Below, one piece after another: positions 3,775-8,216 of a stretch of 9,223 nucleotides of DNA (within the stretch, counting starts at the first letter, position 1; the number at the start of each line of letters is the position of its first letter). The notes beneath the pieces are model-generated. The model worked only from the letters and a program-made list of their open reading frames with translations. It was not told the DNA's origin and ran no database searches. A program made the translations under genes and the position numbers. This stretch comes from a bacterium (GTDB taxonomy: Bacteria > DYJV01 > JALVYZ01): contig JALVYZ010000285.1 in assembly GCA_027037705.1 (NCBI GenBank), positions 1 to 9,223 on the forward strand. The letters are read 5' to 3'.

Positions 3775-3804
3775 CCTTCAACCTTCTACCTTCCCCCTTC
3801 CACC
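3775..3804. repeat. GGTGGAA heptad array at the trpG 3' end
   Basis: On the plus strand four 7-bp units follow CC: TTCAACC (3777-3783), TTCTACC, TTCCCCC and TTCCACC (3798-3804). The minus (mRNA) strand therefore reads GGTGGAA-type units, opposite to the copies inside trpE and aroA. The trpG stop codon TAG lies within this array. Confidence 0.8.
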
Positions 3805-4376
3805 TTTATTTTTGTATTTTCACAAAAATTTTTAAAATTTTTAATTATTTGCTCTCCAAATTCACTAAAATAAGATTCTGGATGAAACTGTACGCCAAAT
3901 AACATTTTATCTTTATCTTCTATTGCCATTATTTCTTTATCTGATATAGATTTTGCTTTTATTAATGGTGAATCTTCAGGGATTTCCACAGCAAGAGAAT
4001 GGTATCTTACAGAGTTAAAAAATTCTGGGATATTTTTAAATAATATTGAATCTCTAATAATTCTTATTTTATCAATCTTGCCATGCTTTATTGTCTTTGC
4101 TTTTTTTATTTTATATCCGAGGAAAAATCCTATACACTGCATCCCAAGGCACACTCCTAAAAAAGGAATTTTCCCAGAATATTTCTCAAGATATTTTATT
4201 GAATTTGCAGAATTTTCTGGGCGTGATGGTCCAGGAGAAATGATTATTCCATTAAGATTATTAATATTGACTATTTCATCATCATTTTTCTTTACAACAA
4301 CATTAAGACCACATTTTACACATAAAGCATATAAATTGTATGTAAATGAATCATAATTATCAATAAGCAAAAACAT
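3786..4376 (-). CDS. trpG: Anthranilate synthase component II, glutamine amidotransferase
   Basis: TrpG hydrolyses glutamine and delivers ammonia to TrpE for anthranilate formation. The 196 residues are a class I amidotransferase: NYDSFTYN (7-14), IIISPGPSRPENS (44-56), GVCLGMQ with nucleophile Cys76, RYHSL (124-128), and QFHPES with His165 and Glu167 completing the triad. It is a free-standing subunit with no fusion to TrpD or TrpE. It starts inside the end of trpE (17-nt overlap) with GGAGAAAAACA upstream, suggesting coupled synthesis of the two subunits. The last residues, VEGGR, and the TAG stop are read from a heptad repeat, so the native C-terminus has been replaced or extended slightly. 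No Trp residues. Confidence 0.96.
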   Translation of the reverse strand: MFLLIDNYDSFTYNLYALCVKCGLNVVVKKNDDEIVNINNLNGIIISPGPSRPENSANSIKYLEKYSGKIPFLGVCLGMQCIGFFLGYKIKKAKTIKHGKIDKIRIIRDSILFKNIPEFFNSVRYHSLAVEIPEDSPLIKAKSISDKEIMAIEDKDKMLFGVQFHPESYFSEFGEQIIKNFKNFCENTKIKVEGGR

Positions 4377-5823
4377 TGTTTTTCTCCATTTGTGTTATAA
4401 AATTTATAGCACTAAAAATTGCTTTTAATTTTCTGTCTATTTCTTTTAATTCATTTTCTGGAGAACTATCTGCAACTATGCCTGCACCTGCTCTTGAAAT
4501 AGTTTTTTCTTTTTCAAAAAATGCACTTCTAATTGTTATGCATGTATCAAGTGAATGATTGTAATTTATGTAACCTACACAGCCAGAATAGAATCCTCTT
4601 GTCGATTCTTCATATTCTGAAATTAACTCAATAGCTCTAACCTTTGGAGCTCCTGATACAGTACCAGCAGGAAAGGTTTTTAAAAAAAGTTGAAATGGAG
4701 TAACATTATTTTTTAATCTACCTATTACTTCTGAAACAATATGAATAACATGTGAATAAACTTCTGTGGAGAATGCAGTTGTGACCTTCACAGAATTTAT
4801 ATCGCATCCCTGATAAAGGTCATTTCTTGCGAGGTCTAAAAGCATTAAATGTTCTGAAATCTCTTTTTCATCATCCAAAAGCGCTTTTTTAATTTTTTCC
4901 AAATCTTTCCCAACTGGATATGTTCCTGCTATAGGTTTTAATAATGCATATCTATTTTTAACTTTGAGGTGAGTTTCTGGAGATGAGCCAGCTAAAACTT
5001 TATCGTTAAATTTAATGAAAAACATATATGGAGAAGGATTTATGTTTCTTAAAGCTCTATAAAAAGAAAATGGATTAACTTTTCCATAAACTGTATATTT
5101 TCTTGATAATACTACCTGAATTGCTTCACCATTAATTATTTCATCCTTAATGCTGTTAATTTTATCAAGAAATTTGATATCTTGATATTCTTTTTCAATA
5201 GTTAAGGTTGAAGGTGGAAGGTGGGAGGTTGAAGAGTTTTTTTTATTTTTAAATACTTTTTTTGTAAAATCGTTTAGTTTTTCAAGTGCTAAGAAGTAGT
5301 TTACATTGTTATCAACACAAATTGCAGCATACAGTTTATTTTTAAAATTATCAAATACAAAAAATTTATTTACTTCAAATACAATAGAATGAATTTCATC
5401 AGAAATTTTAATTTTTTTTCTTAGAAAATTCATAAAGTTAACTGTCTCATATCCAAAAAATCCAACTAATCCTCCTGCAAAATCACCAAATTCTTCATTA
5501 ATAAACTGACTTTTTTCTTGGTAATTTTCATTAATATAATCAATTATGTTTTTGTTGATTTTTTTATAGTCTTCTCCTTTTTGAATAATAACATGGTCCC
5601 TTGTACCAATTAATACTTTTTCAGGATTACTTCCAAGGAATGAAAATCTTGAAAATGTTTTATCAATTTTTGTGCTTTCTAAAAGAAATAGATTCTTGCA
5701 ATAAGAAAGCAATAAAAGGAGATTTACAGGAGTTAATGTATCTGCAAATATCTCTTTATAGATTGTTATTTTTTCATATTTTTCTGATAACTTTAAAAAT
5801 TCTTCTTTTTCAGGATAGATCAT
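4360..5823 (-). CDS. trpE: Anthranilate synthase component I
   Basis: TrpE converts chorismate to anthranilate using ammonia from TrpG. The 487 residues, counted from the ATG at 5823, include the tryptophan feedback motif LLES (47-50) and the chorismate-binding domain: GEAIQVVLSR (232-241), PIAGTYP (297-303), EISEHLMLLDLARNDL (321-336), FPAGTVSGAPKVRAIELI (384-401), RGFYSGCVGY (409-418) and AGAGIVADS (445-453). An in-frame TTG at 5835 would add four residues but overlaps the Shine-Dalgarno GGAGGAG (5827-5833). The ATG sits 5 nt after GGAGG, so I chose it. Residues 196-206 (NSSTSHLPPST) come from an inserted heptad module in the linker before the catalytic domain. First gene after the second trp attenuator. 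No Trp residues. Confidence 0.97.
   Translation of the reverse strand: MIYPEKEEFLKLSEKYEKITIYKEIFADTLTPVNLLLLLSYCKNLFLLESTKIDKTFSRFSFLGSNPEKVLIGTRDHVIIQKGEDYKKINKNIIDYINENYQEKSQFINEEFGDFAGGLVGFFGYETVNFMNFLRKKIKISDEIHSIVFEVNKFFVFDNFKNKLYAAICVDNNVNYFLALEKLNDFTKKVFKNKKNSSTSHLPPSTLTIEKEYQDIKFLDKINSIKDEIINGEAIQVVLSRKYTVYGKVNPFSFYRALRNINPSPYMFFIKFNDKVLAGSSPETHLKVKNRYALLKPIAGTYPVGKDLEKIKKALLDDEKEISEHLMLLDLARNDLYQGCDINSVKVTTAFSTEVYSHVIHIVSEVIGRLKNNVTPFQLFLKTFPAGTVSGAPKVRAIELISEYEESTRGFYSGCVGYINYNHSLDTCITIRSAFFEKEKTISRAGAGIVADSSPENELKEIDRKLKAIFSAINFITQMEKNNVFAY
5206..5240. repeat. 35-nt heptad module inserted in trpE
   Basis: Five 7-bp units on the plus strand: GGTTGAA (5206-5212), GGTGGAA, GGTGGGA, GGTTGAA and GAGTTTT (5234-5240). 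It is translated on the minus strand as NSSTSHLPPST. Its length and unit order match the copy at 7221-7255 in aroA. Confidence 0.85.
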
Positions 5824-5841: not shown

Positions 5842-5871
5842 AAAAAAAAAGCCGTGGGAATTACCCACGGC
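5842..5871 (-). terminator. Attenuator terminator 2 (before trpE)
   Basis: Perfect 8-bp stem GCCGTGGG (5864-5871) and CCCACGGC (5851-5858) with loop TAATT, followed on the minus strand by nine T (5842-5850). It lies between leader peptide 2 and trpE, as an attenuator terminator should. The stem is identical to that of terminator 1. Confidence 0.93.
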
Positions 5872-5916
5872 TTTTAAAATATATAACGATAGAATACACC
5901 TACCGCGGGTATTCCC
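5842..5916 (-). promoter_or_regulatory. Tryptophan attenuator 2 (antiterminator versus terminator)
   Basis: The minus-strand segment GGGAATACCCGCGG (5903-5916) can pair with CCGTGGGTAATTCCC (5856-5870), which contains the 5' arm of the terminator. The pairing is 14 bp with one G-U and one bulged A. It covers the codons just before the leader stop, so a ribosome reaching the stop would mask it and allow termination. A ribosome stalled at the Trp codons ends upstream of it and leaves it free. A competing hairpin at 5892-5914 (GAATACCC with GGTGTATTC, one bulge) would favour termination when the leader is untranslated. Structures were paired by hand, not folded by program. Confidence 0.82.
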
Positions 5917-5968
5917 TGAAACTTAAATTATTCCACCACCAGCACCATGTTGAGTTTTGTATAATCAT
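5900..5968 (-). CDS. trpL: Tryptophan leader peptide 2
   Basis: A 22-residue ORF: MIIQNST, then the Trp cluster WCWWW (codons 8-12, 5933-5947), then NNLSFREYPR and TAG. AAAGGAGA (5973-5980) stands 4-5 nt before the ATG. It ends 28 nt before the terminator stem of attenuator 2, upstream of trpE. Four Trp codons out of 22 in an otherwise nearly Trp-free operon, placed before an antiterminator/terminator pair, are the hallmark of ribosome-mediated trp attenuation. It begins 16 nt after the toxin stop codon. Too short for ordinary gene finders. The peptide itself probably has no function beyond stalling. Confidence 0.88.
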   Translation of the reverse strand: MIIQNSTWCWWWNNLSFREYPR

Positions 5969-5984: not shown

Positions 5985-6260
5985 TTATGGAAAAATCTTA
6001 TAAATATCCTTTCTATGTGCAATTATTTTAACAAAAATTATTTTATTTATCTTATCAATCTCTAACCCAATTCTATAATCTCCTATTCTTATCTTATATT
6101 TATTTTTATAACCTTTCATTTTATTTAAAAAATTCAAAGCATAAGGATTATCTGTAAAAGGTAACTGTTCAAATACTATTCTTTCCACTTTCATTCTTAA
6201 CTCATCTGGCAATTCTACTAATTTTTTTATGAATTTTTTAGAATATTTTACTTCCCACAT
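5985..6260 (-). CDS. RelE/ParE-superfamily toxin
   Basis: A 91-residue protein of the RelE/ParE toxin fold. RelE-type members cleave mRNA in the ribosomal A site when freed from antitoxin; ParE-type members target gyrase. Seen: N-terminal helices (YSKKFIKKLVELPDELRMKV), then YKIRIGDYRIGLEID (55-69) and VKIIAHRKDIYK (77-88), the usual strand pattern with basic residues K56, R58, R63 and R83 and a C-terminal Tyr87. The IRIGDYRI...HRKDIYK arrangement suits RelE better than ParE, but activity is inferred. It overlaps the antitoxin by 13 nt and has no recognisable Shine-Dalgarno sequence, so its translation probably depends on the antitoxin's. Codon 2 is UGG (Trp), the only Trp in the protein. It lies between the two trp attenuators. 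Confidence 0.88.
   Translation of the reverse strand: MWEVKYSKKFIKKLVELPDELRMKVERIVFEQLPFTDNPYALNFLNKMKGYKNKYKIRIGDYRIGLEIDKINKIIFVKIIAHRKDIYKIFP
5995..6022 (-). promoter_or_regulatory. Possible internal promoter for leader 2 and trpE
   Basis: TTGCAC (6017-6022), 16-bp spacer, TAAGAT (5995-6000) on the minus strand inside the toxin gene. Each hexamer matches the sigma-70 consensus at four of six bases. A start near 5988 would leave room for the leader 2 Shine-Dalgarno site. In an AT-rich genome such matches arise by chance, so this is weak. Confidence 0.25.
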
Positions 6261-6454
6261 TGATTTTTTAATTCATTATAATAATTTAAAGATTCTTCAT
6301 ATGATAAAAAATCTTCTTCTATTTCTTCCATCATTTTTGATAATCCATAATTTTCAATAATTTCTTCTAAAATTTTAAAATCTTCAAATGGTATCTGCAC
6401 TGCAATAGGATTGTTATTTTCATCATAAAGGATGTTTTTTCTAATTTTTAACAT
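6248..6454 (-). CDS. Antitoxin, RelB/Phd-like, partner of the adjacent toxin
   Basis: A 68-residue acidic protein. The N-terminal half (LYDENNNPIAVQIPFEDFKILEEIIENYG) resembles the start of short Phd/YefM- or RelB-like antitoxins that precede RelE toxins. The C-terminal half (MMEEIEEDFLSYEESLNYYNELK) is the amphipathic, acidic part expected to wrap and neutralise the toxin. The identity rests mainly on gene order, size and this pattern. AAGGGGGG serves as ribosome site. It starts 26 nt after terminator 1, so it is the first gene controlled by attenuator 1, and it overlaps the toxin gene by 13 nt. It has no Trp codons. If it represses its own operon as many antitoxins do, that would add a second input. 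Confidence 0.8.
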   Translation of the reverse strand: MLKIRKNILYDENNNPIAVQIPFEDFKILEEIIENYGLSKMMEEIEEDFLSYEESLNYYNELKNQCGK

Positions 6455-6472
6455 CTTTTCCCCCCTTAAAAA

Positions 6473-6501
6473 TAAAAAAAGCCGTGGGGGATGCCCACGG
6501 C
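6473..6501 (-). terminator. Attenuator terminator 1 (before the toxin-antitoxin pair)
   Basis: 8-bp stem GCCGTGGG (6494-6501) and CCCACGGC (6481-6488), loop CATCC, then seven T, an A and more T on the minus strand. The stem sequence is identical to terminator 2; only the loop differs. Confidence 0.92.
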
Positions 6502-6541
6502 TTTTATAATAAACGGATACTATTTATCCGTGGCTATCCCC
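6474..6541 (-). promoter_or_regulatory. Tryptophan attenuator 1 (antiterminator versus terminator)
   Basis: The minus-strand GGGGATAGCCACGG (6528-6541) is complementary to CCGTGGGCATCCCC (6487-6500) at 12 of 14 positions, and the latter includes the 5' terminator arm. The leader 1 stop codon (6534-6536) lies inside the first strand, so a ribosome finishing the peptide masks it. CGGATA (6525-6530) and TATCCG (6514-6519) form a perfect 6-bp hairpin that overlaps the antiterminator strand and could act as pause or competitor. From the last Trp codon to the antiterminator strand is 16 nt, the same as in attenuator 2. Confidence 0.8.
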
Positions 6542-6590
6542 GAAATCTAAAAATTTTCCACCATGACCACCAGTAATTATTTTTCATCAT
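6534..6590 (-). CDS. trpL: Tryptophan leader peptide 1
   Basis: An 18-residue ORF, MMKNNYWWSWWKIFRFRG then TAG, with four Trp codons (6558-6563 and 6567-6572). It starts 18 nt after the aroA stop and precedes attenuator 1. The part after the Trp cluster (KIFRFRG) aligns without gaps to NNLSFRE of leader 2 and shares FR, suggesting a common origin. It lacks a clear Shine-Dalgarno sequence: only AAAGAC lies upstream. It may be coupled to aroA translation or read from a nearly leaderless transcript starting around 6592. The second ATG (6585-6587) is an alternative start. Confidence 0.83.
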   Translation of the reverse strand: MMKNNYWWSWWKIFRFRG

Positions 6591-6598
6591 AATTTGTC

Positions 6599-6625
6599 TT
6601 TATAAAATTTAAAAATTCCTGTCAA
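6599..6625 (-). promoter_or_regulatory. Possible promoter for leader 1, toxin-antitoxin and trp genes
   Basis: A perfect TTGACA (6620-6625) overlaps the last aroA codons. TATAAA (6599-6604) follows after 15 bp, shorter than the ideal 17; TAAAGA at 6597-6602 would give 17. Transcription would begin about 6591-6593, almost at the leader 1 ATG. Confidence 0.4.
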
Positions 6626-7904
6626 GAATTTTATTAAATTTTTGCCAAAAATAAGGAAATGATTTATTTACACATTCATAATTATCAAATTCAATATTTA
6701 ATCCTGATAATTTAAATAAAGCAAAGCTCATTGCTATTCTGTGGTCATTAAATGTTTCAATCATTATTTTTTTCTTTGTATTTAAAATTTTCTGCTTATT
6801 CCCGGAGATTTTTAAAAAATCTTTCCCAGCTTCAACATCAATTCCAATCTTTTTTAAATTTTTCTTTATTGCAAATATCCTATCAGATTCTTTAAATCTC
6901 AGATGGCCAATGTTTTTTATTACAGTCTTGCCTTTGGCAATTGATGATAATACCGCTAAAGTTGGCACAACATCAGGCATTTTGTTCATATCCACTTCAA
7001 TTCCATTTAATTCTCCTGGGAATACCTTTATAGAATTATCAGTAATTTCCACTTTTGCTCCCATTTTTTTTAGAACATTTATAAAATTTTTATCTGGTTG
7101 TAAGGAATTGTTATAATTAATGTCTTCAACAACAATTTCCCTATTTAAGAAAAATGGAACTGAAAGAAAATAAGATGCTGATGAAAAGTCACCTTCTATT
7201 ATGTATTTTTGAGGTTTATAGGTGGAAGGTGGAAGGAAGAAGGTTGAAGAGTTTTTTATTACTTTTACTCCAAAGTCTTCCATTACTTTTAATGTAATAT
7301 CAATGTATGGCTTTGAGGGAATATCTTCATTTATAACAATTTTAACGCCATTTTTAAATAATACTCCTGATAAAAGTAAAGATGACACAAACTGACTACT
7401 TTTTGAGGAGGAGATTTTTAAGGTGGAAGGTGTTAGCCGAGCATCTAATATATTAGGTGCTTGGTTGAAGGTTGATGATTTTTTAATTAAAACAGGAGGA
7501 AAGCCTTTTTTTTCAAGATATTGTATATTAAAACCGACAGATTTCAAACATTCAACAAGTTCATTAACAGGTCTATTTTTCATTCTTTCATTTCCAGTAA
7601 GAATAATATCATCTGGATAAAAGCATGATAATGTAATTAAAAATCTTATACCTGTACCATTATTTCCCATATAAATTTCTTTTTTTCCATTTGAAACAAA
7701 TTTCCCATTATTGCCTTTAACAATAATTTTTTCATCTTTTATTTCAATCTGAACCCCTAATTTTTTTAACGCCTTTATTAATAATAATGTATCTTCACTT
7801 ATTAATGGATTAATTAAAATACTTTCACCCTCTGCAAGTGAAGCACATATTAATGCTCTTTGAGTTATGCTTTTTGAACCTGGAATTTGAATTTTTTTAA
7901 ACAT
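6609..7904 (-). CDS. aroA: 3-phosphoshikimate 1-carboxyvinyltransferase (EPSP synthase)
   Basis: AroA joins shikimate 3-phosphate and PEP to EPSP, the penultimate step to chorismate. The 431 residues show IPGSKSITQRALICASLA (7-24), the PEP loop GNNGTGIRFL (80-89), LTGNERMKNRPV (102-113), SSKSSQFVSSLLLS (166-179), KPYIDITL (198-205), GDFSSASYFL (238-247), MPDVVP (309-314) with the catalytic Asp, FKESDRI (337-343) and NDHRIAMS (386-393). Two loops are altered by inserted repeats: about 142-161 (SSTFNQAPNI...TPST), where homologues have a Gly-rich turn before SSQF, and 218-228 (NSSTFFLPPST). The ATG follows CAGGGAAATTCTA, a fair ribosome site. The next elements downstream are leader 1 and attenuator 1. 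One Trp residue. Confidence 0.96.
   Translation of the reverse strand: MFKKIQIPGSKSITQRALICASLAEGESILINPLISEDTLLLIKALKKLGVQIEIKDEKIIVKGNNGKFVSNGKKEIYMGNNGTGIRFLITLSCFYPDDIILTGNERMKNRPVNELVECLKSVGFNIQYLEKKGFPPVLIKKSSTFNQAPNILDARLTPSTLKISSSKSSQFVSSLLLSGVLFKNGVKIVINEDIPSKPYIDITLKVMEDFGVKVIKNSSTFFLPPSTYKPQKYIIEGDFSSASYFLSVPFFLNREIVVEDINYNNSLQPDKNFINVLKKMGAKVEITDNSIKVFPGELNGIEVDMNKMPDVVPTLAVLSSIAKGKTVIKNIGHLRFKESDRIFAIKKNLKKIGIDVEAGKDFLKISGNKQKILNTKKKIMIETFNDHRIAMSFALFKLSGLNIEFDNYECVNKSFPYFWQKFNKILDRNF
7221..7255. repeat. 35-nt heptad module inserted in aroA, copy 1
   Basis: Five plus-strand units: GGTGGAA at 7221-7227 and 7228-7234, GGAAGAA, GGTTGAA, and GAGTTTT (7249-7255). Translated on the minus strand as NSSTFFLPPST (residues 218-228). 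Same length, orientation and reading frame as the trpE copy. Confidence 0.85.
7422..7483. repeat. Heptad module in aroA, copy 2, with nested palindrome
   Basis: Heptads GGTGGAA (7422-7428), then an interrupting segment, then GGTTGAA (7463-7469), GGTTGAT and GATTTTT (7477-7483). Total length is 62 nt, exactly 35 + 27, so the reading frame of the module is kept. The encoded peptide begins (K)SSTFN and ends LTPST, matching the ends of the other two copies. Confidence 0.82.
7433..7468. repeat. Palindromic element nested in the aroA heptad module
   Basis: The 22-bp core 7440-7461 (AGCATCTAATA joined to TATTAGGTGCT) is self-complementary except for one T-G pair. Pairing extends to 36 nt (7433-7468) if three further T-G wobbles are allowed. 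It is coding sequence in aroA (NQAPNILDARL) and interrupts a heptad unit. Confidence 0.75.
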
Positions 7905-7917
7905 TAGAATTTCCCTG

Positions 7918-7949
7918 TAAATGCGTATATGCGTGAATGCGTAAACGCG
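7918..7949. repeat. Octamer array upstream of aroA
   Basis: Four 8-bp units: TAAATGCG, TATATGCG, TGAATGCG and TAAACGCG. It ends 14 bases upstream of the aroA ATG and reaches close to its ribosome site. Same family as the arrays at 165-237. Confidence 0.85.
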
Positions 7950-7965
7950 AAAATGAAAATTTTTT

Positions 7966-8055
7966 GTTATTAGTAGTTATTAAGAGTAATTCATGGTTAT
8001 TCATGGTTATTTATTGTTATTAGTGGTTATTGATAGTAATTTGTAGTTACTCTCC
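7966..8055. repeat. Decamer array, nine units of GTTATTNNTN
   Basis: Nine contiguous 10-bp units with GTTATT or GTAATT at the front, for example GTTATTAGTA (7966-7975), GTTATTCATG (7996-8005) and GTTATTAGTG (8016-8025), ending in a degenerate GTTACTCTCC. The first five or six bases of each unit are conserved and the last four vary. Confidence 0.85.
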
Positions 8056-8108
8056 TTAAAATAACCTTTCATTTTATACCATTTTAATATGCTTTTCCCC
8101 ATTATTTA

Positions 8109-8189
8109 GGCTAATGGCTATGGGCTATAGGCGATAGGCTATAGGATTTAATTATTTTCCTTATAACCTATATCCCATTGCCTCTTGCC
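8109..8189. repeat. Inverted pair of GGCTATA heptad arrays
   Basis: Plus-strand units GGCTAAT, GGCTATG, GGCTATA, GGCGATA, GGCTATA, GGATTTA (8109-8150). After a short AT spacer the same motif lies inverted at 8162-8189: on the minus strand GGCAAGA, GGCAATG, GGATATA, GGTTATA. A long imperfect hairpin is possible around 8144-8160. Confidence 0.8.
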
Positions 8190-8194
8190 CATTT

Positions 8195-8216
8195 AATTTT
8201 TAATTTTTCATTTTTT
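8195..8216. repeat. AATTTTT heptads
   Basis: AATTTTT at 8195-8201 and again at 8202-8208, followed by the near-unit CATTTTTT. Short and low-complexity, noted because it keeps the 7-bp period of its neighbours. Confidence 0.45.

Follow-up and report, generated by a model that had tools for sequence, protein, structure and literature searches.

A RelBE-like toxin–antitoxin pair lying between two tryptophan-leader attenuators: probable capture in the trp operon of an uncultured bacterium

Gene order in the trp region

The window analysed here is one entire contig of 9,223 bases from an uncultured, strongly AT-rich bacterium, whose source genome comprises 2.05 Mb in 496 contigs at a completeness of 92.8% and has a GC content of 23.8% as computed on 450 kb. 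The same 450 kb underlie the genome-wide statistics on terminators, leaders and words given below. On the minus strand the genes and signals follow one another in the order pheA, aroA, Trp leader 1 with terminator 1, antitoxin, toxin, leader 2 with terminator 2, and trpEGDCFBA. The upstream neighbour aroA occupies 6609..7904, and trpE (4360..5823, minus strand) is the first gene of a run that continues through trpG, trpD, trpC, trpF and trpB to the start of trpA (the names from trpG to trpA were assigned by reading sequence and gene order). The antitoxin gene (6248..6454, minus strand) encodes 68 aa and the toxin gene (5985..6260, minus strand) 91 aa; both ORFs are intact and overlap by 13 nt. 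As originally predicted, 16 nt separate the toxin stop codon from the leader 2 ATG when read from the coordinates, whereas the gap between terminator 1 and the antitoxin gene, put at 26 nt in that prediction, measures 22 nt from stem to ATG.

An assembly artefact was considered as the source of the doubled leader and rejected: the two leader regions have no exact word longer than 15 nt in common, a length that would probably not lead an assembler into a misjoin. Imperfect tandem arrays of 7–10 bp (for example AAGGTGG, TAGGCTA and GTAAATGC) were observed at 5204-5234, 3775-3806 and 7917-8215 of the window, in spacers as well as within coding genes (trpE and the 3′ end of trpG), with similar stretches in aroA, and words related to these arrays recur at other sites of the genome. 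The word GTGCGGAGTCGGGAGT occurs both in the spacer after pheA (about 8230) and at the end of trpB (262), and is found seven times in the 450 kb.

Two Trp-leader attenuators in series

In the classical design of the Escherichia coli trp attenuator, arm 2 is masked once the ribosome has reached the leader stop codon, and formation of the antiterminator excludes the terminator. Each leader of the window carries four Trp codons, followed by an antiterminator arm and then by a terminator made up of a 12-bp hairpin and a T run. Leader peptide 1 (MMKNNYWWSWWKIFRFRG) extends from the ATG at 6590 to the stop codon at 6534 on the minus strand and is served by terminator 1 (6477..6505), whereas leader peptide 2 (MIIQNSTWCWWWNNLSFREYPR; 5900..5968, minus strand) is preceded by the Shine-Dalgarno sequence AAAGGAG and followed by terminator 2 (5847..5875). 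In both cases the partner of arm 2 is the 5′ arm of the terminator together with its loop. The pairing partners in attenuator 1 are GGGGATAGCCACGG (6527..6541, limits approximate, overlapping the leader stop codon) and CCGTGGGCATCCCC, with a duplex energy of −20.1 kcal/mol, and those in attenuator 2 are GGGAATACCCGCGG (5902..5917, limits approximate) and CCGTGGGTAATTCCC, with a duplex energy of −23.0 kcal/mol. Dinucleotide shuffles paired equally well in 2 of 1000 cases for leader 1 and in 0 of 1000 for leader 2. In folds of the RNA computed with the ribosome at the last Trp codon and with the polymerase having just reached the end of arm 3, the antiterminator formed; with the ribosome at the stop codon, arm 2 was hidden and the terminator alone remained. 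By sequence criteria, then, both leaders are complete ribosome-stalling attenuators.

The stems of terminators 1 and 2 are identical over their 12 bp and their loops are different. By eye, the arms of the two attenuators differ by one two-sided change (G-C to A-U) and one single-sided change (A-U to G-U), and the antiterminator pairing is preserved despite these differences. The two leaders thus look like copies of one element, in line with the duplication proposed in the original prediction. A DNA search of the source genome revealed no third copy.

The signals also stand out against their surroundings. The region contains 4 terminator-like sites as compared with 0.8 ± 0.8 in shuffles, and two of the 18 matches to a strict terminator criterion in 450 kb fall at this locus. 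Elsewhere in the 450 kb, no short ORF preceding a terminator has even two Trp codons within seven residues. Rfam models did not reach their gathering score at the locus; the best match to an amino-acid leader was His_leader (20 bits versus 49), Trp_leader was absent among the matches listed, and the low scorers were mostly generic terminator hairpins.

Attenuators of the trp operon are known in Corynebacterium and Streptomyces (PMC1262725), and the present elements share with these, and with that of E. coli, a Trp-rich leader, mutually exclusive antiterminator and terminator, and a position upstream of trp genes. They differ from the E. coli attenuator in that two are arranged in series, with an unrelated toxin–antitoxin pair between them, and in the lack of an Rfam match above threshold.

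The promoter of leader 1 and the route into the pair

A putative promoter (6599..6625, minus strand) lies ahead of leader 1, with TTGACA at 6625-6620, a 15-nt spacer and TATAAA at 6604-6599. It is present as originally described, and its TTGACA is placed alike in a relative, G001, which is the sole genome of the same order in the comparison (TrpE identity 55%; the kinship of the remaining genomes in the set is at domain level only). The distance from TTGACA to the leader ATGATG downstream of it is exactly 35 nt in each of the two genomes (6625 and 6590 in the window; 1264 and 1299 of locus L006 in G001). The relative possesses a single attenuator before trpE, with the leader MMTNINTLTTNWWWNSKMI, stem sequences unlike those of the window and a perfect antiterminator (GGTCATCTA/TAGATGACC); its leader pairing is matched by 67 of 1000 dinucleotide shuffles. 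The antitoxin family and the pair are absent from it. At the position equivalent to that of the promoter, leader 2 lacks TTGACA. The common TTGACA position and the lack of such a promoter at leader 2 together suggest that leader 1 is probably the ancestral, promoter-bearing copy, and leader 2 an internal one. In the unrelated genome from which locus L025 derives, a short ORF (MMREKMISIVCWWWHLGVPPAP) located ∼233 nt upstream of trpE resembles another Trp leader.

No Shine-Dalgarno sequence was found before leader 1 or before the G001 leader, whereas a five-base match to this signal precedes 42% of the long genes in the source genome versus 4% in the control. A promoter 35 nt upstream would let transcription begin on the ATG itself or beside it, so that the leader 1 mRNA is possibly leaderless, as is the case for trpL of Sinorhizobium meliloti, whose Trp leader mRNA starts at the leader AUG (PMC7298713). 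Use of this promoter and leaderless initiation are predictions for the window; beyond this the S. meliloti system differs in having one attenuator before trpE(G) and no toxin–antitoxin pair.

The order of promoter, terminator and genes bears out the original claim that transcription from this conserved promoter must cross attenuator 1 before it reaches the pair. A private promoter between 6473 and 6454, on which that claim could founder, was not evident in the sequence: the 22 nt from terminator 1 to the antitoxin start leave no space for two hexamers and a start site. Expression of the pair might nevertheless escape attenuator 1, by way of a cryptic promoter or of read-through that ignores the leader, in which case the position of the pair would be accidental and of no regulatory consequence. 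The AT-rich sequence indeed offers numerous weak promoter-like matches, relatives of the pair that stand alone have their own, longer upstream regions, and transcripts may arrive by read-through from aroA or arise from a promoter within either gene of the pair. The leader 1 promoter is itself suboptimal in its spacing of 15 nt, given that exact TTGACA/TATAAT pairs in the source genome are enriched at 17 nt. Against this, start sites upstream of about 6494 still run into terminator 1, and between the end of aroA and trpE the word TTGAC occurs solely at 6625. The region shows no excess of promoter-like matches over shuffles, and weak ones inside the genes would not yield a transcript of the entire pair. 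We consider independent expression improbable, and it is likely that transcription of the pair is under tryptophan control.

We therefore favour, at a probability of roughly 0.7, the reading that the trp operon has captured a RelBE-like type II pair, which is flanked on either side by a copy of a Trp-leader attenuator and owes its transcription to the leader 1 promoter. With ample charged tRNA-Trp, translation would proceed to the leader 1 stop codon, where the ribosome would cover arm 2; terminator 1 would then form and keep antitoxin and toxin mRNA scarce. If charged tRNA-Trp ran short, stalling of the ribosome at the Trp codons would allow arms 2 and 3 to pair and transcription would read through into the pair, after which attenuator 2 would repeat the same decision ahead of trpE. 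If each attenuator lets a fraction r pass, the output of the pair would be proportional to r and that of the trp enzymes to r squared, and the pair would accordingly respond at milder starvation and have a higher basal level than trpE.

The toxin–antitoxin pair and its place in the operon

The identity of the pair as RelBE-type, downstream of a complete Trp attenuator, is upheld by Pfam, PDB and family evidence and by the overlapping genes. The antitoxin, which is RelB-like and preceded by a strong Shine-Dalgarno sequence (AAGGGGGG), matches PF18506 (E 6e-22), and the toxin, a member of the RelE/ParE superfamily, matches PF05016 (E 1e-6; 29.6 bits, cut-off 23), whereas its score against NCBIfam RelE_StbE is under the cut-off of that model. 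Among solved structures, Methanocaldococcus jannaschii RelE3 (3bpq_B, E 9e-13) is the best match to the toxin. A two-sequence profile of the antitoxin has its best PDB match, a weak one (E 0.02), in RelB3 of the same complex (3bpq_A; PDB 3BPQ). The solved RelB3 chain of 52 aa is shorter than the window antitoxin of 68 aa, which carries an extra stretch at its N-terminus; M. jannaschii RelB is described as not belonging to the ribbon-helix-helix type (PMC3507626). The toxin structure predicted from its sequence alone has low confidence (pLDDT 56); its helices and strands follow one another in an order that agrees with RelE.

Toxin residues R58, Y62, R63, R83 and Y87 are also found in E. coli RelE and in relatives, with the mapping of one arginine dependent on gap placement. 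In E. coli RelE, Tyr87 is needed for cleavage, and it is for this protein that the action of RelE-type toxins on translation is established (PMC3507626). The residues equivalent to those of E. coli RelE, Y87 included, make a nuclease of the RelE type more plausible than a gyrase inhibitor of the ParE type, and toxicity is predicted on this basis. The original prediction had also raised the prospect of an inactive toxin; the pair might in that case be no more than transcription filler between duplicated attenuators. Decay does occur in this family, as homologous toxins in two other genomes (L036 of G002 and L140 of G256) are truncated or frameshifted. In the window, however, RelE-type active-site residues are retained together with both ORFs, the antitoxin Shine-Dalgarno sequence and the gene overlap, so that we regard a degenerate pair as unlikely. 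At L036 (1498-1874), in a distant genome, the same antitoxin family lies beside the truncated toxin, flanked by genes that by eye are phosphofructokinase-like and fructose-bisphosphate aldolase-like.

Other relatives of the pair stand alone in distant genomes. At L139 the antitoxin and toxin share 50% and 54% identity with those of the window and the genes overlap similarly, and at L142 the toxin identity is 42%. Viral contigs searched with the toxin and antitoxin gave no relatives, and thus no sign of recent phage carriage; a plasmid search gave distant RelE/ParE toxins only (identity <36%). The GC content at third codon positions is 14.5–17.4% in the pair and 15.4–18.3% in the neighbouring genes, which is consistent with a long residence. 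The source genome also contains another pair, a ParE-type toxin and its small partner, positioned between two methylmalonyl-CoA mutase genes (L002, on contig C62 of G000, 1495-1918), where the toxin ends 11 nt before the gene of the mutase large subunit; no attenuator was noted there in a terminator scan. The presence of this second pair within a metabolic gene cluster of the same genome favours capture over design.

It may alternatively be supposed that the link to tryptophan has been selected, with extra toxin–antitoxin of the RelE type, made at Trp limitation, slowing translation, or with addiction protecting the trp region. The action of RelE-type toxins on translation lends itself to such a role, and the attenuators, like the proteins, are both intact. 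The Trp content of the proteins points the same way: Trp is absent from the antitoxin and occurs once in the toxin, at residue 2, so that severe starvation would favour the antitoxin. TrpE, TrpG, TrpD and TrpC are likewise without Trp. Trp2 was rejected as a special adaptation of the toxin, since the toxins at L139 and L140, which lie outside trp operons, have it too. Selection is further weakened by the sole same-order relative, which lacks the pair and hence offers no comparative sign of conservation, and by the recurrence of metabolic-cluster capture in the source genome. Selection of the link is accordingly a doubtful proposition, if somewhat less so than independent expression or a degenerate pair. 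The pair is most likely a captured passenger whose expression would follow Trp starvation, a status as compatible with the sequence as a growth-arrest role.

The original prediction held that no such case had been described. This stands for leaders specific to Trp or another amino acid, for which no governed toxin–antitoxin pair was found in the open-licence literature, but not for leader ORFs in general. The sole precedent found, and the nearest, is the E. coli topAI-yjhQ toxin–antitoxin operon, which is governed by the leader ORF toiL; toiL senses ribosome-targeting antibiotics and acts via the ribosome-binding site and Rho-dependent termination (PMC12121999). Both systems place a toxin–antitoxin operon under a ribosome-stalling leader ORF, although the window has Trp codons and an intrinsic terminator in place of antibiotic sensing and Rho. 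The novelty is hence one of known parts in an arrangement that was not found described, and that is seen in one genome.

Control of a type II pair is usually ascribed to its own antitoxin, acting at the pair's own promoter, and the response of chromosomal pairs to particular nutrients is disputed. For the present pair the DNA layout predicts a specific inducer, a shortage of charged tRNA-Trp, and also how the output of the pair should scale against that of the trp enzymes (r versus r squared). An amino-acid-specific attenuator ahead of the pair and a second one downstream could tentatively be seen as inducing it at milder Trp limitation and coupling Trp supply to translation arrest. The serial attenuators would in that arrangement form a natural two-stage switch.
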